In this document: positions 53,101 through 64,000 of the stretch, one piece after another
How the letters are laid out: each line of letters opens with the position of its first letter
Position numbering within the stretch: the first letter of the stretch is position 1
NCBI RefSeq assembly: GCF_000019845.1
Contig: NC_010581.1
Span: 3,479,501 to 3,543,500, forward strand
DNA from: Beijerinckia indica subsp. indica ATCC 9039
GTDB taxonomy: Bacteria > Pseudomonadota > Alphaproteobacteria > Rhizobiales > Beijerinckiaceae
Reading direction: 5' to 3'
Length of the DNA: 64,000 nucleotides
Notes under the pieces: model-generated
The model's database searches: none
What the model saw: only the letters and a program-made list of their open reading frames with translations
Told to the model about the DNA's origin: nothing
Position numbers and translations under genes: made by a program

Positions 53101-54381
53101 TTGCGCCTCTTGCGTTTCTCTTCCTCTTGTCTTTTTCTCATCCAGGCCTCCGTCGCCGTGGCGCAAATGCCTCCCGCCGGACCACCTGCCGTCGGCGTGG
53201 CGCGGGTCGAAAAAAAGCCGATCACCCAAACCAATGAATTTCTAGGCCGTATCCAGGGTATCGAACGCGTCGATATTGTCGCGCGTGTGACCGCCTTCCT
53301 CGATGAGGTCGCGTTCCGGGACGGTGCCGAGGTCAAGACCGGCGATGTCCTCTATCGGCTCGAACGGGGTCCCTTCGAGGCGACACTCGCCGCACGCCAA
53401 GCGGTCGCCGACCAGTTTCGCGCCCAGCTCACCAATGCCAAGATCGCCCTGGCGCGCGCCGAGGCCCTGTTACGAACGCCTGCCGGCACGCAGGCGAATG
53501 TCGATACGGCGACCGCCAATTCCCGCGCCCTGGAAGCGCAGGTGCAAGGCGCGGAGGCCGACACGAAAAACGCACGGATCAATCTCGATTATACGACCAT
53601 TACCTCCCCGATTGACGGCAAGATCGGCCGCACGGCCGTACGCATCGGCAATGTCGTCAGCCCCTCGAGCGGCACGCTCGTCACAATCGTCGGGCAAGAC
53701 CCGATGTATGTCGTCTTCCCTGTTTCGGTACGCACTATTCTCGATCTGCGTGATCGCTATCGCACGCAATCAGAGAAAGATCCGGAGCATACAGGCCAGC
53801 TCGTCGTCCGTCTGCGGCTGCCTGATGGCCGCATGTATGGACAGACCGCGCATGTGGATTTCATCGACAATAGCGTGCAGTCCGCAACCGATACGATCCT
53901 TTTGCGCGCGACGATTGCCAATCCCCTCATTCCCGTCAACAGCGCCACACCGAATTCGCTGCGCGAATTGACGGATGGCGAATTCGTCAATGTCGTCCTC
54001 GAAGGCGCGCAGCCGATCGTCGTCCTGGCCATTCCCCGCGCCGCTGTGCTCACCGATCAAGAAAGCGATTTCGTCTATATCGTCGATAAAGAGGGCAAGG
54101 CACAGCGCCGCAATATCAAGCTGGGACAATCAACGCCCACCGTCGCTTCGGTCATTACCGGCCTCCAGGAAGGCGAACTCGTGATCGCCGAGGGCTTGCA
54201 AAACGTCCGTCCGGGCCAGCCTGTCTCGGCGAGCCCGATGACCCCTGGCCCCTCGCTCGGTCCTGAAACAGCCGCACCCGGGACAGGTACATCTGGAACC
54301 GCGACACCAGTCACCAAAGCACCAGGAACCAAAGCGCCCAGCGAATCCGCCCCCTCTCGCGCCGCGCCTGAAAAACCCTGA
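53101..54381 (+). CDS. RND efflux periplasmic adaptor (MFP/HlyD family)
   Basis: This is a 426-aa periplasmic adaptor that joins the RND pump to an outer-membrane channel. It has a signal peptide (about residues 1-21), a first lipoyl half (FLGRIQGIERVDIVARVTAF, LYRLERGPF), a helical hairpin (about 95-165, coiled coil) and the second lipoyl half (TITSPIDGKIGRTAVRIGNV). The beta-barrel and membrane-proximal domains follow (AVLTDQESDFVYIVDKEGKA). The C-terminal tail is Pro/Thr/Ala-rich. The start is a TTG with GAGGG upstream. It precedes the pump gene by 61 bp. The usual partner outer-membrane factor is not in this window. Confidence 0.93.
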   Translation: MRLLRFSSSCLFLIQASVAVAQMPPAGPPAVGVARVEKKPITQTNEFLGRIQGIERVDIVARVTAFLDEVAFRDGAEVKTGDVLYRLERGPFEATLAARQAVADQFRAQLTNAKIALARAEALLRTPAGTQANVDTATANSRALEAQVQGAEADTKNARINLDYTTITSPIDGKIGRTAVRIGNVVSPSSGTLVTIVGQDPMYVVFPVSVRTILDLRDRYRTQSEKDPEHTGQLVVRLRLPDGRMYGQTAHVDFIDNSVQSATDTILLRATIANPLIPVNSATPNSLRELTDGEFVNVVLEGAQPIVVLAIPRAAVLTDQESDFVYIVDKEGKAQRRNIKLGQSTPTVASVITGLQEGELVIAEGLQNVRPGQPVSASPMTPGPSLGPETAAPGTGTSGTATPVTKAPGTKAPSESAPSRAAPEKP

Positions 54382-54442
54382 ACGCGGCGCGCCGGTTCAC
54401 GCCGGCGATGCGATCGTTTTCCTCTTCATGAAATGAAGCGCC

Positions 54443-57400
54443 ATGTTTTCCTCGATCTTCATCGATAGGCCACGCCTTGCCATCGTCATCGCCATTGTGA
54501 TCACCATCGCCGGCGCGATTTCGATGACCCGGATTCCGGTATCACAATTCCCCGATATCGTGCCGCCGCAAGTGCAGGTCACGGCGCGTTATCCGGGTGC
54601 CTCGGCCGGCGTCGTCGAAGCCTCCGTCGCGCAGCCGCTCGAGGCACAGATCGTCGGCGTCGACAAAATGCTCTATATGAAATCAGCGAGCGGCGACGAT
54701 GGCAGTTATACGCTGACCGCGACCTTCGATCTGTCGAGCAATCCCGACATCGATACGGTCAATGTCAATAATCGCGTGCAGACGGCCACGCCGCTCCTGC
54801 CGCCGGAGGTGCGCCAGCAGGGCCTGACGGTGCAGAAACGCTCGTCGGCGGTTTTGCAATTCATGATGCTCTACAGCGACAATGGCGCGCAGGACCCGCT
54901 GTTCATCACCAATTACGCGACGATCAACGTGCTCGATGAAATTTCGCGCACACCCGGCGTCGGCCAGGCGAGCCTCTTCGGCAATCTCAAATATTCGATG
55001 CGGATCTGGTTCGATACGAGCCGGCTTGTCAGCCTCAATCTGGCCCCTTCCGATGTGATCGCCGCGATCAGTAATCAGAATGTCCAGGCGCCGATCGGAC
55101 GTATCGGCGCGAGACCCATTGCCGACGATCAGCAATTCCAGTTCAATCTGCAGACACTGGGGAGGCTGCAGACACCGGAGGAATTCGGTGCAATCGTGAT
55201 CCGCGCCAATCCCGATGGATCGGTGCTGCGCGTGCGCGATGTCGCGCGGGTGGAAATGGGCGCCCAGAGCGAGGATGCCGAGGGCCGCTATTCCGGCAAG
55301 CCGGCGGTCGGCATCGGCATTTATCTGTCTCCCGGTGCCAATGCCGTGCAAACCGCGGCCGCCGTGGGCAAGGTCCTGGAACGGGTCGGCAAACGCTTTC
55401 CCGAGGGGTTGAAATCCACCGTCGTCTATGATGCGACGACCTTCGTGTCGGATACGGTACGCGAGGTCTTGCACACCTTGATCGAAGCTTTCGTCCTCGT
55501 CGTCCTCGTCGTCTTTCTGTTTCTCGGCAGTGTCCGCGCGACGGTCATTCCAACGATCGCCATTCCGGTCAGCCTCATCGGAACATTCGCCATCCTCCTC
55601 GCACTCGGCTTTTCAGCCAATACGGTCTCGCTGCTCGCTTTGGTTCTGGCCATCGGCATAGTCGTCGACGATGCGATCGTGGTTGTCGAGAATGTCGAGC
55701 GCGTGATGGAGGAGGAGCCGGATCTGACACCGGCCGAGGCCACCAAAAAAGCCATGGCGCAGATCACCGCGCCGATCATCGCCATCACCTTGGTCCTGCT
55801 CTCGGTCTTCGTTCCGATTGCCTTCATTCCTGGCACGTCGGGCGTCTTATTCCGTCAATTCGCGGTGACGATCAGCGCCGCCATGCTGATCTCGGCGCTC
55901 AATGCCTTGACCCTTTCGCCCGCGCTTTGCGCCATCGTTTTGAAACGGGGCCGGCCGCGGCGCGGCCTCATGCATCTCGTGCTGCAGGGCATCGACAAGG
56001 TCCGCGACGGCTATGCCCGCGTCGTCGTCAGGCTCCTGCGCTTTTCCTTCCTCGCCGTATTGCTTGTCCTCGTCTTCGGCGCGGGCATTTATGGCCTGTC
56101 CTTCAAGACGCCGACCGGCTTCCTGCCCGAGGAAGATCAGGGCGCCTTCTTCATCGCGATCCAATTGCCCGATGGCGCCTCGGTGGCACGCACCAGCGAG
56201 GTCATCAAGCGGGTCGAGAAAATTCTGCTCGGCATGCCGCAGGTCAAGGCGACTTTCGCCATTACCGGCTTTTCCCTCATCGATGGCGCCAACGAAGCCA
56301 ATAATGGGTTCATGGTCGCCAATCTGAAGCCTTTCGAGGATCGCAAGGCCGCCATGGACTCGGCGCAGGCCTTGATCGCCCAGGTGTTCATGCGCGCCGC
56401 CACCGAAATCCGGACGGCCCGCGTCATCGCCTTCAACCTGCCGCCGATCATCGGCCTTTCGACCAGCGGCGGCTTCGAATTCATGCTCGAAGGGCTTGAA
56501 GGCCAGGAACCCGCCCAGCTCTCGAGCGTCATGCAGAGCCTGATCATCGGCGCCAATCAAAGGCCCGAGCTCACGCGCGTCTTTTCGACCTTTACCGCGA
56601 CCAATCCATCGATCTTCCTCGAAATCGATCGCGACAAGGCGCAGGCGCTCGGCATCAATATTGCCGATCTGTTCAATGCCCTGAACACGACGTTAGGGGG
56701 CTATTACATCAACGACTTCAATCTTTATGGCCGAACCTGGCAGGTCAATATCCAGGGCGAGGCCGCCGACCGGCGCGATATTTCCTCAATCTGGCAGATC
56801 TATATCCGCAACAATAGGAATACGATGGTGCCCATGGCCTCGCTCGCCACGGTGCGCATGGTCCAAGGGCCACAGATCATCACGCGCTATAATAATTACC
56901 GCGCCATTCTCATTAACGGATCGCCCGCGGCAGGCGTTTCCTCGGGCTCGGCCTTGGAGGCCATGGGCACGCTGGCCGATCAGACGCTGCCCCCCGGCTT
57001 TTCCTTCGAATGGACCGGCACGGCCTATCAGGAATCACAGGTCTCCGGCCAGACGGGCTTCATCCTCGCCTTCGCCTTGCTGTTTGCCTATCTCTTTCTC
57101 GTTGGTCTCTATGAGAGCTGGGTCATTCCAGTGCCGGTCCTGCTCTCTGTCTCCGTCGCGGTGTTCGGTGCCTTTCTCGGCATTATCGTGGCTGGCGTAT
57201 CGCTCGACCTTTATGCTCAGATCGGCCTCGTGGTGCTGATCGCGCTCGCCGCGAAAAATGGTATTCTGATCGTGGAATTTGCAAAGGAACAACGCGAGCA
57301 CGGAGCCACGATCATCGAAGCAGCGGCCCTTGGCGCGGAAATGCGGTTCCGGGCCGTCATGATGACATCGCTCGCCTTCCTGCTCGGCCTCATTCCGCTG

Positions 57401-57613
57401 ATTCGGGCGACCGGTGCCGCGCAATTGAGCCGCCGCGCGGTTGGCACGCCCGTCTTTGCCGGCATGCTGGCGGCCAGCACTATCGGCGTCTTTCTCATCC
57501 CCATGCTGTATGTGGTTTTCCAGAAAATGGTCGAACGCGTCAGCAGTGCAAAGCCGAAGACACAAAAGGTACTCGCGCAAACAGGCGAGCCGCCTGCCCC
57601 TCGTTCGGCCTGA
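54443..57613 (+). CDS. RND multidrug efflux pump, HAE-1 (AcrB/MexF) family
   Basis: This is a 1056-aa inner-membrane proton-driven pump with 12 helices and two large periplasmic loops. Diagnostic segments are [56 protein letters not shown] (TM4 with the paired Asp of the proton relay), [18 protein letters not shown] and [15 protein letters not shown] (TM10 Lys region). Length is standard for HAE-1. Substrate specificity cannot be assigned. It is followed 2 bp later by a lytic transglycosylase, apparently in the same transcript. Confidence 0.96.
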
Positions 57614-57615
57614 CC

Positions 57616-58884
57616 ATGCCGACGGCAGGCCCCCCACCCCAACTCGTAAGCCGGCGGCATGCCAACGGCTTCCTGATGGGTTTTGTTGGGGGCCTTATCG
57701 CCAGCCTTTGCTCCCTCTCCCTTCACGCGGAGGGGGTCTCTTCTACCCCGTTAGCGAGCCGGTCCTCATTCGCCTCTTTTCTCGCGGGGCTTTGGCCGGA
57801 AGCCCAGAAGGCCGGGATCAAACGCCAGACTTTCGACTCGGCTTTCGACGGCCTCACCTATGATCCCGCCCCCGCGCGGGCGGCTATGGCGCAGCCGGAA
57901 TTCGACCGGCCCTTACGCCTCTATTTCGCTCAGGCAGCGAGCCCCCCTCGGCGCGATCGCGGCCAAGTGTTACGCAAACAGTTCAATCCAGAACTGACCG
58001 CTCTGGAACAAAGATATGGCGTCCCGGCAGAGATCATCGTCGCCGCCTGGGGCATGGAAAGCGATTACGGGCGTCTGCGGGGCGACAATGACATTATCCG
58101 TTCGCTGGCCAGTCTCGCCTTCGCCCTGCCCGAGCGCCCTCTCTATCGTCAGGAATTGCTCGCCGCGCTTGTCATCCTCGACAGCGGACAGGTGAAACGC
58201 AATGACATGCGTGGATCTTGGGCGGGTGCCATGGGCGATCCGCAATTCCTGCCCTCCGCCTATCTCACCTATGGCATCGGTTTCGATGGAAAACCTTTTC
58301 CCGATCTCTGGCACAAGGCGGCCGATAGCCTCGCCTCGATCGCCTCATTCCTGGCGCGCTCCGGCTGGAAACCAGGCCTGCCCTGGGGGCTTGAAGTGCG
58401 CCTGCCACAAAATGCCGATCTCTCCTCCCTGCATCGAGATTTTTCCACCTGGACCAAGCTCGGCGTGGATGCGGCATCAAACGGCACCCTCCCCGTCAAA
58501 GGCGAGGCGACGCTGTTCCTGCCAGCCGGCCGCCAAGGCCCCGCATTTCTTCTCTCGGATAATTATTGGGTTCTGAAGCTCTATAATAATTCTGATGCCT
58601 ATGCGCTTTCGCTTGCATGGTTGGCGCAGGAAATCAAAGGGGAAGGCGGTTTACGAGGCTCGTGGCCTGAGACTGGGCCGGAACTCAGCCGGAAGGAAAA
58701 GGCGGCAATCCAACAACGTTTGCAAAAACTTGGATTCTATCAAGGCACGCTCGACGGCCGTTTCGGCCAAGCCTCGCGCGATGCGATCCATGCCTATCAA
58801 CTGCGTGTAGATCCGGGCAAAGCGGACGGCTTTGCCACGCAGGCCCTCTATCGGCAATTGCTGTCCGCCATGCCGGAACCGTGA
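57616..58884 (+). CDS. Lytic murein transglycosylase, MltB-like, with C-terminal peptidoglycan-binding domain
   Basis: This is a 422-aa periplasmic enzyme that cleaves the MurNAc-GlcNAc bond to form 1,6-anhydroMurNAc. The N terminus has a hydrophobic export segment (GFVGGLIASLCSLSLHA). The SLT_2 domain (about 50-320) has the catalytic Glu148 in AWGMESDYG, then MRGSWAGAMGDPQFLPSAYL and a KAADSLASIASFLARSGW block. A PG_binding_1 domain (about 355-415) shows QQRLQKLGFYQGTLDGRFGQ. The gene starts 2 bases after the pump stop. Coupling to the pump may help install the trans-envelope complex, an inference. Confidence 0.92.
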   Translation: MPTAGPPPQLVSRRHANGFLMGFVGGLIASLCSLSLHAEGVSSTPLASRSSFASFLAGLWPEAQKAGIKRQTFDSAFDGLTYDPAPARAAMAQPEFDRPLRLYFAQAASPPRRDRGQVLRKQFNPELTALEQRYGVPAEIIVAAWGMESDYGRLRGDNDIIRSLASLAFALPERPLYRQELLAALVILDSGQVKRNDMRGSWAGAMGDPQFLPSAYLTYGIGFDGKPFPDLWHKAADSLASIASFLARSGWKPGLPWGLEVRLPQNADLSSLHRDFSTWTKLGVDAASNGTLPVKGEATLFLPAGRQGPAFLLSDNYWVLKLYNNSDAYALSLAWLAQEIKGEGGLRGSWPETGPELSRKEKAAIQQRLQKLGFYQGTLDGRFGQASRDAIHAYQLRVDPGKADGFATQALYRQLLSAMPEP

Positions 58885-59279: not shown

Positions 59280-59667
59280 TGGCTTCTCTTCTCCCTTCCT
59301 GTATAAATTATTGCCATATTAGATTATATTTTAATATTTTTATCGGAATTTCCCATTTATTCCACATGCACGCAATAGCATAGAAAATAATTATGTAATA
59401 TTATAACTCTATGAAGTTATAATATGGTAAAATACTCCTACACGGCCATGGAATACTTAATAAAAGCGGAGTATATTTTTATCACGGCGAGTAATGCTAA
59501 GCTCTCGCTTTTCCAGTAATATTAATATATGCGTAATACGTATTAGTCTCGCCCGCAATACCTTACAGGCACTTTTTAAGCCAGCTCAACCAAAAGTACC
59601 CTCCCCTTTTGGTTGAGGCTCTGCACGATCGGACATTCAATTAGATGCGTGGGCGAACTGTAAGCGC
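59280..59667. promoter_or_regulatory. AT-rich intergenic region with perfect palindrome
   Basis: Base composition is far more AT-rich than the surroundings for about 270 bp. TATTATAACT (59399-59408) and AGTTATAATA (59415-59424) are perfect 10-bp arms around CTATGA. Both flanking genes point to the left, so this probably carries the promoter of the 97-aa gene, with a regulator site. The composition could also mark foreign DNA or a nucleoid-protein binding site. Confidence 0.5.
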
Positions 59668-61263
59668 TTACGCTGGCACGCTTTCTTTCCAGCGCGCAAT
59701 CTCCGACAGCTCCGCTTCCGGACGATCGATGAGAAGCTTGCCGCGTCCCGAGAAAATCGTCCCCGCCCCGCCATCGATGGAGAGCCAATCGCCTTCTTTG
59801 ATCGGCAGGTCGTGCAAACGGGCTGTATGTCCGGCAACATCGACATTAAGGCCGGCGCAGCCGACCAGACAGGGTTTGCCTAATTGCCGCGCTACGAGTG
59901 CCGCATGGGCGGTGCGGCCGCCAACTGCGGTCACAATTCCCGCCGAGGCGGCAAAACCCGCGACGTCAGCGGTGCTGATTTCCGGCCGCAGGAGAATGAC
60001 GGGATCTCCCGCTTTTGCCAAGCGTTGAGCGCTCGTGGAATCGAAAGCCGCGCGACCGATCGCGACGCCCGTGGAAGCGCCGGTTCCATGCCCCACAGGC
60101 TCGCCAACCGCGCTCAGTCTTTGATTGGCGAGATGTTCGATATCCCGCGTGAAATCGATATTTTCCAGCCGCTGCAACGCCTCCTTGGGCGTAATGAGCC
60201 CCTCCTTGACGAAGGCCACGGCGAAACGCAAAGCCGCCGCCGGTGTGCGTTTCGCACTGCGGGTTTGCAGAAACCACAATTTGCCGTTTTCAATCGTGAA
60301 TTCGACATCCTGCACATCACCGAAGGCCTGTTCAAGCCGTGCGAGCGTCGCCACCAATTCCTTGGCGGCGGCGGGCACGGTACGCGCCAAAGCCGCTTCC
60401 GGTTCCGGCGTGCGGCGGCCAGAGACGACATCCTCGCCTTGCGATTCAAACAGGACATCGATTACCGGCGTCGCCGCGCCCGTCGATGGATCACGCGAAA
60501 AGGCGACACCGGCCCCCGATGTCAGCCCAACATTGCCGAACACCATGGCCTGGACCGTAACAGCCGTGCCGCCAAGCGCCTCGAGATGTTCCAGTTTGCG
60601 ATAGGTTTTGGCTTTGTCACTTTCCCACGAGCCAAAGACCATGCGCGCGGCCGCCTCGACCTGGCGCATCGGCTCTTCCGGTATGAATCCGCCGTTGCTC
60701 TCGATCACCTGCAGATAGGCCCCGGCAAGCCGTTCCAGCGCCTCACTGTCGAGATCACCCGCATCAAGGACCCCTTCTTCGGCCATGATCTGATCGCGTC
60801 GTTTGCGCAAAAGCGCCTGATCAAGGCCAAGGACGACATCGGCATAGCTGTCGAGAAACCGGCAGCGACAATCCCAGGCAAAACGCGGATGACCGGTCTG
60901 ACGCACGAGGCCCAACACAACAGAAGGCGTGCAGCCAACATCGAGCACGGTTTCCAACATGCCGGGCATGGACCGCGCCGCTCCCGAACGCACGGAAATG
61001 AGCAGCGGATGGCGGTGATCACCAAACCGTCTGCCGGTGGCCTCTTCGAGATAAGCGATCCCTTCTTCGAGACCCTTGACCAAGGCCTTTTCCGCCTCGG
61101 GCTCACTGCGCAGGATCGCGGAACAAAGCGTGATCGGCAGGACGAAGGCCGGCGGAACGGGAAGGCCGAGCGCAGCCATGCGCTCCAGATTGGCAGCCTT
61201 CGCTCCGATGAGATCTGCGGAATGTGCCTCGTTCGTTCCGGTCGCGATACGCACGATCTGCAT
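59668..61263 (-). CDS. PPDK-like ATP-grasp / phosphohistidine protein lacking the PEP-pyruvate domain
   Basis: This is a 531-aa cytoplasmic protein matching the first two-thirds of pyruvate phosphate dikinase. The N-terminal ATP-grasp part (about 1-350) has GAKAANLERMAALGLPVPPA, SVRSGAARSMPGMLETVLDV, GGTAVTVQAMVFGN, SGAGVAFSRDPSTG, GEDVVSGRRTPEP and DVQDVEFTIENGKLWFLQTR. The swivelling domain (about 410-500) has the phospho-acceptor His453 in GGRTAHAALVARQLGKPCLV, where normal PPDK has GGMTSHAAVV. The protein stops there: the C-terminal PEP/pyruvate barrel of full PPDK (about 870 aa) is missing. ATG 61263 was chosen because similarity begins there. It is 31 bp after the DUF47-like gene, so the two are co-transcribed. 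Confidence 0.85.
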   Translation of the reverse strand: MQIVRIATGTNEAHSADLIGAKAANLERMAALGLPVPPAFVLPITLCSAILRSEPEAEKALVKGLEEGIAYLEEATGRRFGDHRHPLLISVRSGAARSMPGMLETVLDVGCTPSVVLGLVRQTGHPRFAWDCRCRFLDSYADVVLGLDQALLRKRRDQIMAEEGVLDAGDLDSEALERLAGAYLQVIESNGGFIPEEPMRQVEAAARMVFGSWESDKAKTYRKLEHLEALGGTAVTVQAMVFGNVGLTSGAGVAFSRDPSTGAATPVIDVLFESQGEDVVSGRRTPEPEAALARTVPAAAKELVATLARLEQAFGDVQDVEFTIENGKLWFLQTRSAKRTPAAALRFAVAFVKEGLITPKEALQRLENIDFTRDIEHLANQRLSAVGEPVGHGTGASTGVAIGRAAFDSTSAQRLAKAGDPVILLRPEISTADVAGFAASAGIVTAVGGRTAHAALVARQLGKPCLVGCAGLNVDVAGHTARLHDLPIKEGDWLSIDGGAGTIFSGRGKLLIDRPEAELSEIARWKESVPA

Positions 61264-61294
61264 GAAGAAGTTCCGATGATGGAGTTTGAAAAAA

Positions 61295-63238
61295 TTATTT
61301 CGAGAGATCGGCCAGCACGTGGTCACGCAGCAGGCCACCCGCGCCAGCCAGCCGATCGGTCGCGCGTTCAAGGGCGCGCGCTAATTCCATGACGGAGAGA
61401 GAGGTCCGCAGATCGAAACTGCCGCGCAACACCAGGCGCGTGAGCGTGCGTTCGGCTTCATCCGCCCGATGTTCGTAATCGGCCAGTTGAACACAGGCCT
61501 CAAGCGCGTCCTCCGTATCGACACGCTGGCCTTGCGGAACATCCATGGCCGCGACGGCGCCGATGGCCATGGCCTGCGTGCTCCCCACCGCCGCCGCACT
61601 CAGATCGCCAAGCGGTTTCAACAGATCGGCCGGCAAATCTTCCGGAATCAGCGAGGCGATGAAGGCCGCTTGTTCGAATTCGTCGATCGTCTCTTCCACG
61701 CGGTTGACGAGGCTTTCAATCGCGCGGTCGGCATTGAGCCGGGCGATTTCAACCCGCGCCGCGACCGCCATGCGGTCGGCTTTCTCTTCGATATGCCGCG
61801 CATTCGCGGCCGCCCGGTCAGCATCGATCGCCTGCCCCTTGCTCCGCGCCGCGATCAAATGGGCGATAGCGTCAGCAATATCACGCGCAAGGCCCGCCTG
61901 GCGCACAACGATCGACAACAAAGAACTGTCGACGCTTTGCAGCCGCCGCATCAGATCGGCTTCGATGCGATCGCGCGCCAGCCGGACTGAACTGCCGGCG
62001 AGCAAGGTTTCGCTCGCGACGCGCAGCGCGTTTTTGAGGAAATCCACCGCCGCCTCACGGCCGAGCGCATGATCGAGACGCTCACCGAAGCCAATCCGTG
62101 TGGGCGTCGTATTGCGCACCGCCGAGGCGATAAGATCGCCACCGCCCAATTCGAGAAAGGCGCGATGGCCGAAACGGTTACGAGCCGCCCATTCGAGAAT
62201 GTGTCCGGCATCGGCCTTGGACATCCAGGTCCGCAGGAGCTTGCGGGCCTTGTTCCAATCGATCAGAAACACCAGGCTGGAGCCAAGCGCCGCCAGGAAA
62301 GCGGAGCGATGCGCCTGATCTACCGCCGCAAAACGGCCGGTCGTGAGATAGAAAGGTTCCTCGTCGCCGATGCCTTGAGCGTCCTTGCGTTCAAGGCCGC
62401 TCCATTGCACGGCGAAAGCGTCGAACAAGTTGGCAAAGAATCGCGCGCGATCGAGATGCACATCCGTATACGTGATGGTGACAGCAGCCGGATCTATGGT
62501 AATGACCACCACATGCGCTTCGGTCTCTCCGATATCGTTCTGGATGACCAATTTGCCGGTGCTGCGCATGGCCGTGGTGGCGAGGCCCGGATGGTTGAAT
62601 TTCAGTTTCCGGGTCGACTCCAACCCGCGCATGAAGGCCTCGACCAGGGGGCGATCCTCTGGCGTCAGACCATAGACATGAGCGCCGGCGCAAATCTCTT
62701 CCGCATGGGCCGCCGCAAGCTGGTTCAAGGCCTTATGGAGATCCATGACAAGGCGATGCAGACTATCCTCATGGTGTGCGGAAAGAGCACCCAATTGGGC
62801 GATCCGCGTCACGGCCATAGTGTCGGCGGGGCCCTGGTTTTCCGGCTTGTCTTTCAAGGCCGCCTGCAAGGCTGCAAGACGAGCAAGCCCGGCCTCACCG
62901 GCGGTCTGGTCTCCGGCCTTGACGGAATTGGCCATGGTCGTGACATCCTGCCAGATCGCGGCGGCGAGCGTGTCGAGGCCGGGCGCACTGATCCTGCCGG
63001 GATCCACAAGCCGCGCGTTCTGAACCAGCGTTTCCATCGGCAAGGGATCAATGCCGGCAGCGCGGCATTCATCCTGGAGGTCGAAGGGAGGCACTGTAGG
63101 GTTTTGGGCACGCCGGGCGGCTGCTTGCAGAACGGCAAGACGAAGCTTGACCTGATCGTTCGCGTGCAGACCATCCTGGATAAGCGATGGCAGGAGGATT
63201 TCACTCTCTCCAAGCCGTTCGATGATATCGGATTTCAT
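61295..63238 (-). CDS. Conserved protein with DUF47/PhoU-like C-terminal domain
   Basis: This is a 647-aa predicted cytoplasmic, mostly helical protein. The first 430 residues are not recognised; they include LKFNHPGLATTAMRSTGKLV, a Trp-rich segment (VFLIDWNKARKLLRTWMSKA) and ILEWAARNRFGHRAFLELGG. The C terminus (about 440-640) resembles DUF47/PhoU-like helical bundles: ARHIEEKADRMAVAARVEIA, ESLVNRVEETIDEFEQAAFI, LADYEHRADEAERTLTR. Such bundles bind metal clusters and regulate phosphate transport. It precedes the PPDK-like gene. Start 63238 (AGGG eight bases upstream) was preferred; an upstream in-frame start adds 27 residues. Function unknown. Confidence 0.75.
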   Translation of the reverse strand: MKSDIIERLGESEILLPSLIQDGLHANDQVKLRLAVLQAAARRAQNPTVPPFDLQDECRAAGIDPLPMETLVQNARLVDPGRISAPGLDTLAAAIWQDVTTMANSVKAGDQTAGEAGLARLAALQAALKDKPENQGPADTMAVTRIAQLGALSAHHEDSLHRLVMDLHKALNQLAAAHAEEICAGAHVYGLTPEDRPLVEAFMRGLESTRKLKFNHPGLATTAMRSTGKLVIQNDIGETEAHVVVITIDPAAVTITYTDVHLDRARFFANLFDAFAVQWSGLERKDAQGIGDEEPFYLTTGRFAAVDQAHRSAFLAALGSSLVFLIDWNKARKLLRTWMSKADAGHILEWAARNRFGHRAFLELGGGDLIASAVRNTTPTRIGFGERLDHALGREAAVDFLKNALRVASETLLAGSSVRLARDRIEADLMRRLQSVDSSLLSIVVRQAGLARDIADAIAHLIAARSKGQAIDADRAAANARHIEEKADRMAVAARVEIARLNADRAIESLVNRVEETIDEFEQAAFIASLIPEDLPADLLKPLGDLSAAAVGSTQAMAIGAVAAMDVPQGQRVDTEDALEACVQLADYEHRADEAERTLTRLVLRGSFDLRTSLSVMELARALERATDRLAGAGGLLRDHVLADLSK

Positions 63239-63398
63239 CGGTGCACCCTGGGACCTTGGTGAATAATGATCCCCCTTGAACGATTCGTGCGTCAGCCGTG
63301 TGACAGTTGAATGACGCATTCTCCCTTATAGAAGATTGAAAATATTGAACCTGGAGCACCGGGCACGGCTCACGGTGAACGTCCAGCGTTCTGATCTA

Positions 63399-63535: not shown

Positions 63536-64000
63536 TCAGCGGCCCGTGCCCAACCCGAAATGCTTGATCCGGCGGTAAAGCGTCGCCCGGCTCATGCCAA
63601 GATGGCTGGCAGCTTTGGCGATATCGAAACCATCCTCGGCGAGTTGCCTTGCAATGACGTCTTTTTCTGCTTGTTGCAAAGTCCCGACAGGCGCCAACCG
63701 TTCCGTGCGGGACGGCAAATCGAAATCATGACTTTCAAGGCATGGCGCCGGGGAACTCGCAAAAGCCAGTTCAAGAACCTGCCGCAATTGGCGAAGATTG
63801 CCTGGCCATTCACAAGCCTCGATCGCGCTTCGCGCCGTAGCCGAGAGATCGCGGCCCAGCGCAATCTCTCGCACAAGCCGATCAATGACCAGGCTCTTGT
63901 CCTCGCGCGACCGCAAGGGCGGGAGATCGATCGGGAGCCCTTTGAGCCGGTAATAAAGATCCGCGCGAAAGGTTCGCGCGGTGACCAGGGCTTCGAGATC
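63536..64000 (-). CDS. Sigma-54-dependent Fis-family activator, 3' part (AcoR-like), truncated by window edge
   Basis: The open frame runs off the right edge; the visible 154 codons start DLEALVTARTFRADLYYRLK, then GLPIDLPPLRSREDK. This is the end of the AAA+ sigma-54-interaction domain, followed by CEWPGNLRQLRQVLELA. The Fis-type helix-turn-helix is at the C terminus (DGFDIAKAASHLGMSRATLYRRIK). LKGLPIDLPPLRSR is like AcoR-type regulators of acetoin or alcohol catabolism. Its targets and its N-terminal sensor are outside the window. Confidence 0.9.
   Translation of the reverse strand, partial: DLEALVTARTFRADLYYRLKGLPIDLPPLRSREDKSLVIDRLVREIALGRDLSATARSAIEACEWPGNLRQLRQVLELAFASSPAPCLESHDFDLPSRTERLAPVGTLQQAEKDVIARQLAEDGFDIAKAASHLGMSRATLYRRIKHFGLGTGR

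Follow-up and report, generated by a model that had tools for sequence, protein, structure and literature searches.

A barrel-less short PPDK and its constant PhoU-like partner in Beijerinckia indica: a candidate two-component dikinase

At the right end of a 64,000-nucleotide stretch of the Beijerinckia indica subsp. indica ATCC 9039 genome (NC_010581.1, positions 3,479,501 to 3,543,500; hereafter the window), the minus strand encodes, from 5' to 3', the C-terminal part of a GAF-sigma54-Fis regulator, a partner protein that we call B, and a short relative of pyruvate phosphate dikinase (PPDK, EC 2.7.9.1) that we call A. We found that A and B form a portable, accessory module, and we propose, with about as much belief as doubt, that they constitute a two-component PPDK-derived dikinase in which B supplies the acceptor side. 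Gene B (61295..63238) specifies 647 amino acids (aa) plus a stop codon from an ATG at 63238, and gene A (59668..61263) follows after 31 nucleotides (nt) with 531 aa plus a stop codon from an ATG at 61263; the list of open reading frames (ORFs) and their translations showed both frames to be open at the positions and on the strand given by an earlier reading of the letters alone (the sequence-only reading). An in-frame ATG also lies upstream of B at 63319, and the MKSxII start at 63238 is the commonest in the family alignment. Scanning 84,980 species genomes turned up relatives of B at 150 loci; the best 80 of these 150 are referred to below as the named loci, and individual loci are cited by L numbers.

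Two Pfam domains scored above their cut-offs in A, PF01326 (130.7 bits; cut-off 27) and PF00391 (69.6 bits; cut-off 23.1). They correspond to an ATP-grasp domain (PPDK_N) at about residues 1-336 (60256..61263, minus strand) and to a PEP-utilizers mobile, or swivel, domain at about residues 384-507 (59743..60114, minus strand), and the latter carries the phosphohistidine site GGRTAHAALVAR (GGRT451AH453AALVAR), which fits the motif GGxTxHAA, with the codon of the predicted phosphohistidine His453, correctly placed by the sequence-only reading, at 59905..59907 on the same strand. In a phmmer comparison, residues 13-507 of A were aligned to residues 13-509 of the 874-residue PPDK of PDB entry 9pzl (score tied with 1kbl), that is, to the first two PPDK domains, and since the alignment stops at residue 509, A ends at the boundary between the His domain and the barrel that binds phosphoenolpyruvate (PEP) or pyruvate. 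A tblastn search of the window with two PPDK barrels found no such barrel, and both positive controls were recovered; among the named loci a barrel was detected in one of 80 (L021), on the opposite strand and within a separate PPDK-like gene. No frameshifted barrel was found downstream of A by tblastn, and in the loci checked A homologues contained zero stops inside the matched stretch. Thus the sequence-only reading was right that A keeps the ATP-grasp and phosphohistidine domains and lacks the pyruvate/PEP domain, from which it follows that A would need an acceptor other than pyruvate or PEP.

K22, R92, S93, D319, E321, Q333, R335, T451, and H453 were invariant across 27 aligned A proteins; most of these are presumably PPDK catalytic residues, which fits the alignment of A to PPDK. 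Among the named loci, 77 A homologues are complete and measure 519-554 aa; one of them, that of L017, departs from the family after residue 471, probably through a frameshift. A scored 495.6 bits against the PPDK model TIGR01828, below its cut-off of 843.45, and 446 bits against the NCBIfam short-PPDK model, just below its cut-off of 456. Rifampin phosphotransferase (RPH) likewise combines an ATP-grasp and a His domain and uses an acceptor that is not pyruvate; however, RPH is a single chain, and A, which scored only 33.5 bits against the full-length RPH model NF041857 (cut-off 999), is PPDK-like from end to end. By its sequence, A is an intact, conserved short form of PPDK.

The partner B falls into an N-terminal part of about 384 residues, not 430 as first described, and a helical bundle at residues 385-647 (61298..62086, minus strand), to which structure prediction assigned a PhoU-like fold. 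The earlier assignment to DUF47/PhoU holds at the level of the predicted fold and fails by Pfam score in this protein, which reached 15.7 bits against DUF47 (PF01865; cut-off 24.4); the cut-off was reached by the Methylocella homologue (25.9 bits) and missed by that of Aquabacterium (17.3 bits). B thus shares its fold with the PhoU/DUF47 (UPF0111) proteins but has the extra 384-residue N-terminal half. Within the bundle, the acidic pairs E484/D488, E589/D593, and E624/D628 (spacing 4) and D519/E522 (spacing 3) were invariant in 93/93 rows of the B alignment, and we take them to match E/DxxxD-type metal motifs. A Pfam scan found no swivel domain PF00391 in B; that domain is on A.

Conservation was equally strict in the N-terminal half of B. 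Residues 158-172 (DSLHRLVMDLHKALN; 62723..62767, minus strand) form a helix in which H161, H168, and K169 were kept in 93/93 rows and N172 in 92/93, and the following alpha/beta domain (residues 180-335; 62234..62701, minus strand) contains H216, Q233, N234, D235, H242, D259, R264, W279, D327, W328, N329, R332, and K333, all invariant in 93/93 rows. Sixteen polar or aromatic residues from H161 to K333 were therefore kept in every row, down to about 31% identity, a set that looks typical of a site rather than of a scaffold. No fold match of the alpha/beta domain was significant; for residues 190-325, the YbjN / T4 MotA C-terminal fold is at most a tentative candidate. Residues 1-135 (62834..63238, minus strand) are helical, with a predicted order of H12-45, H55-61, H65-73, E76-79, E82-84, and H88-109, which reads like a winged helix, an unconfirmed assignment for which no solved-structure relative was found by sequence.

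In 80/80 named loci, A immediately followed B and shared its strand (a contig end cuts A in L020, L061, and L062). The same order was found in 15/15 further loci in which the fetched stretch ends inside A, comprising 6/6 in a survey of the order, 8/8 in a survey of the class, and L132 in a survey of the phylum (L009 and L093 coincide with the named loci L083 and L085). These results agree with the earlier expectation that the two genes are neighbours in related genomes; B without A was never seen in the loci examined. In 95 loci including the window, with start codons chosen by rule, the two genes overlapped in 12, were separated by 0-50 nt in 79, and by 68-180 nt in 4. Within the order, B was present in 7/199 genomes, and the same seven genomes held, among the matches listed, the A-type matches of 46-100% identity; the other listed matches to A were at most 45% identical and came mostly from frames of at least 850 codons, and some match occurred in 195/199 genomes. 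Distances among A proteins and among B proteins were correlated (r = 0.95 over 49 thinned loci, a value that includes shared species history). The order survey found B in 0/6 other genomes of the family, and one genus (g39) was mixed, with B in G171 and G772 and none in G035. Three plasmid records contained a B relative, and A lay behind B in all three: one from Methylocella tundrae, one from the betaproteobacterium Aquabacterium olei, and a second M. tundrae record with both genes in pieces. Damaged copies include those of L076, where B is broken, and of L161, where both genes are broken, perhaps owing to sequencing error.

In the mechanism that we favour, A would bind ATP in its ATP-grasp domain and phosphorylate its own His453, with the beta phosphoryl group if it follows PPDK chemistry; this step is suggested by the intact PPDK residues of A and by the autophosphorylation that others have shown for the mycobacterial protein VadK. 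Left without a barrel, A would then dock on B through its swivel domain. In the last and least certain step, the phosphoryl group would pass to a small molecule or a side chain at the invariant polar site of B, made up of the helix DSxHx5LHKxxN and the alpha/beta domain QND...H...D...R...W...DWNxARK, while the PhoU-like bundle with its invariant acidic pairs would probably bind metal or phosphate and gate the reaction. In this way B would provide, in trans, the second-substrate side that A lost with its barrel. The reasoning is that A, lacking the barrel, should have a phosphate acceptor other than pyruvate or PEP, and that B is its constant companion with a conserved site otherwise unexplained; we infer phosphate transfer from A to B on these grounds, and B is plausible in the role of phosphate acceptor that the sequence-only reading, alongside that of regulator, gave it.

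Several points weigh against this proposal. What the analysis shows is gene structure and conservation; contact between A and B and every transfer step are conjectural. The N-terminal half of B gave no significant fold match and is not known to be an enzyme. Among characterised systems, the two-protein dikinases HpeHI, CreHI, and PpsAB, whose substrates are phenols (PMC12167813), resemble A–B in that a dikinase is split over two proteins, with a phosphohistidine intermediate and a second protein selecting the acceptor; in these enzymes, however, the acceptor protein carries the swivel histidine and its mate has only the ATP-grasp domain, whereas A carries both. VadK is proposed to act by binding methylcitrate-cycle enzymes and not by phosphotransfer to its operon partner (PMC13400623). 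Finally, the genes flanking the pair mostly differ by lineage, and a link to phosphoketolase is confined to loci titled Bradyrhizobium.

VadK (Rv1127c), described in mycobacteria in 2025/2026, is a barrel-less PPDK with the operon partner Rv1126c (PMC13400623, PMC12636432). It was shown to autophosphorylate on His422, co-expression of Rv1126c improved its solubility, and 2 M NaCl was used to part the two (PMC13400623); VadK also affects flux through the methylcitrate cycle and co-immunoprecipitates methylcitrate synthase and dehydratase (PMC13400623). A resembles VadK in being a PPDK without the PEP/pyruvate barrel that keeps the ATP-grasp domain and the catalytic His, and in having an immediate operon partner and no canonical PPDK function. 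On the other hand, A falls in a clade apart from VadK-like plasmid proteins and below the NCBIfam short-PPDK cut-off, the partners of VadK-like plasmid genes have about 200 aa and B has 647 with a PhoU-like half, and the proposed targets of VadK are methylcitrate enzymes. In the open-access literature searched, we found no paper on A with B, nor the arrangement of ATP-grasp and swivel domains on one chain with a PhoU-fused partner. The description of the pair as an unrecognised system therefore stands for A–B itself and has to be qualified by the precedents of VadK (PMC13400623) and HpeHI (PMC12167813): A–B appears to belong among the PPDK-derived kinases that lack the PEP barrel, a class recognised only recently with VadK, and is itself apparently undescribed. 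The pair makes such kinases accessible in non-pathogens (Beijerinckia, Bradyrhizobium, Xanthobacter), with a putative receiver next door in every locus examined, and because this receiver is encoded beside A, the phosphate route is directly testable in vitro. For a conserved 'DUF47' family (150 genome loci in one scan), the module further points to a possible function, and it names the exact residues to mutate.

A possible, if doubtful, alternative is that the pair works as a VadK-like regulator, in which autophosphorylated A binds and tunes central-metabolism enzymes encoded elsewhere and B is an adaptor or stabilising chaperone that is never phosphorylated. The behaviour of VadK, which pulls down methylcitrate synthase and dehydratase and is made more soluble by its operon partner (PMC13400623), speaks for this possibility, a portable pair with changing neighbours would suit a regulator, and the N-terminus of B may be a winged helix, a weak point. 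Nevertheless, the 16 invariant polar or aromatic residues in the N-terminal half of B seem to go beyond what an adaptor needs, and A and the VadK-like plasmid proteins belong to separate clades. In an unrooted tree of 53 PPDK N-terminal parts, built without a row for Rv1127c, the A homologues from B-containing loci formed one clade (27 rows, support 100/100); 15 full-length PPDKs of the order made up a separate group (100/98), and nine short or barrel-degenerate plasmid proteins another (93/83, moderate support). A thus lay outside the group of VadK-like short plasmid PPDKs. Because the tree is unrooted and without Rv1127c, a single and a repeated loss of the barrel are indistinguishable in it; L139, which groups with a full-length PPDK (93/76), suggests that barrel loss may have occurred more than once.

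The VadK-like short plasmid PPDKs of L140, L141, L142, L144, and L148 adjoin proteins of about 200 aa annotated as MarR family, transcriptional regulator, or hypothetical, which from their position and size may be the counterparts of Rv1126c. These partners contain DSYHTVWFELHEEL, or a sequence close to it, near the C-terminus, and B contains DSLHRLVMDLHKAL at residues 158-171; a motif of the DSxHx5FH type was absent from the stretches fetched for L139, L145, L143, and L146. With hhalign, the partners gave two collinear weak matches to B, one of the winged-helix part to residues 33-99 (P 0.023) and one of the motif (P 0.14 and 0.063, both weak). Shuffled controls equalled the hhalign scores in 11/500 and 5/300 and in 16/400 and 8/200 cases, and windows of other families equalled the score of the winged-helix match in 3/53. 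The resemblance of the B N-terminus to the partners of VadK-like proteins is thus suggestive and not established. Under a wider form of our proposal, A–B would represent a new class of two-component dikinase: the histidine helix and alpha/beta pocket of B would form a second active site under control of the PhoU-like metal bundle, and VadK-type systems would use the same winged helix-turn-helix and DSxHx5[LF]H module as their acceptor, so that a single phosphotransfer module would extend from rhizobia to mycobacteria. This wider form seems to us unlikely as it stands.

It is improbable, in our judgement, that B is instead a sensor of phosphate or metal that switches A, or a phosphatase of phosphorylated A, as a PhoU/DUF47-type control subunit of an A that acts as a switch dependent on ATP, phosphate, or pyrophosphate. 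The PhoU-like fold, the invariant acidic pairs, and the use of phosphate in PPDK chemistry would all suit such a role; however, strict conservation is found equally in the half of B that is not PhoU-like, and inspection by eye of the recurrent neighbour families, which are only partly annotated, revealed no phosphate-transport gene. Much less probable still is that A is part of an ordinary PPDK system, either borrowing the barrel of a full-length PPDK in trans or acting as its decoy or inhibitor. The source genome does encode a full-length PPDK (an 897-aa frame, 41% identical to A) and a protein of the PPDK regulator family PF03618, and T451 is invariant, but the full-length gene is elsewhere on the chromosome, A forms its separate 100/100 clade, and both B and the strict A–B pairing would be left unexplained. 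We give next to no credence to chance neighbours or a decaying PPDK fragment: A is short and beside an unrelated-looking gene, and a few relatives carry damaged genes (A of L017, B of L076, both of L161), perhaps through sequencing error, yet a length-conserved A lies beside B in 80/80 named loci and A lies beside B in 15/15 others, with its catalytic residues invariant.

The neighbouring genes, listed for part of the loci and with few annotations, mostly vary by lineage. A phosphoketolase gene lay upstream of B in the same direction in 30/80 loci, all titled Bradyrhizobium, and was followed by acetate kinase in 25 of the 30; in L039 and L078 these genes are more than 1 kb from B, and some other Bradyrhizobium loci have no upstream phosphoketolase. 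Elsewhere, the gene upstream of B encodes PEP carboxylase in Tistlia (L092), a phosphoesterase in Methylocapsa acidiphila, and the GAF-sigma54 regulator in the source genome and Beijerinckia mobilis (L013). The C-terminal part of this regulator occupies 63536..64000 of the window, on the minus strand and in the same direction as B, and continues past its end; the whole 626-aa ORF is present in L150. As a hint of the substrate, these linked genes suggest the acetyl-phosphate/PEP node of carbon metabolism, though mostly from one genus. In the five Bradyrhizobium loci L028, L031, L047, L051, and L081, phosphoketolase is directly before B and no acetate kinase was found in the locus (E 1e-20), so that B–A takes the position which, in most of the 25 remaining phosphoketolase loci, belongs to acetate kinase.

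Other short PPDKs were seen on plasmids. L139 (4839-6551) and L145 (3435-4922) each encode a barrel-less PPDK within a cytochrome P450 gene cluster on a Rhodococcus plasmid. L143 (3905-6439), L147 (3417-5960), and L149 (3501-6008) encode PPDK-like proteins of about 840 aa; the last 330 or so residues of those from L143 and L149 had no Pfam match and looked by eye like a decayed barrel, and the gene of L143 adjoins microcompartment genes. Inspection by eye also found, in L147 and L149, a DSxHx5FH partner and an ORF that looks like a free-standing PEP-utilizer mobile domain. On the actinobacterial and betaproteobacterial plasmids of L140, L142, L144, and L148, a barrel-less PPDK, a partner of about 200 aa, and a nearby separate PEP-utilizing enzyme recurred; two of these enzymes were scanned (543 and 572 aa) and had the swivel domain only, at the C-terminus, and in L140 the enzyme is encoded on the opposite strand. 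L040, a contig labelled Terriglobia (Acidobacteriota), carries a B–A pair close to those of Hyphomicrobiales, pointing to transfer or to a misbinned contig.

In the window itself, a 502-aa frame on the plus strand at 59884-61392 runs antisense to A and is most likely a shadow of its codon bias, and a short stretch downstream of A (59300-59560) appeared AT-rich by eye. Further away, 53101-58884 holds two genes that probably encode an RND efflux pair (426 and 1056 aa) and then a 422-aa probable lytic transglycosylase-like protein, all named by eye; in Beijerinckia mobilis (L013), genes of 1056 aa and about 430 aa are likewise found near the B–A pair.

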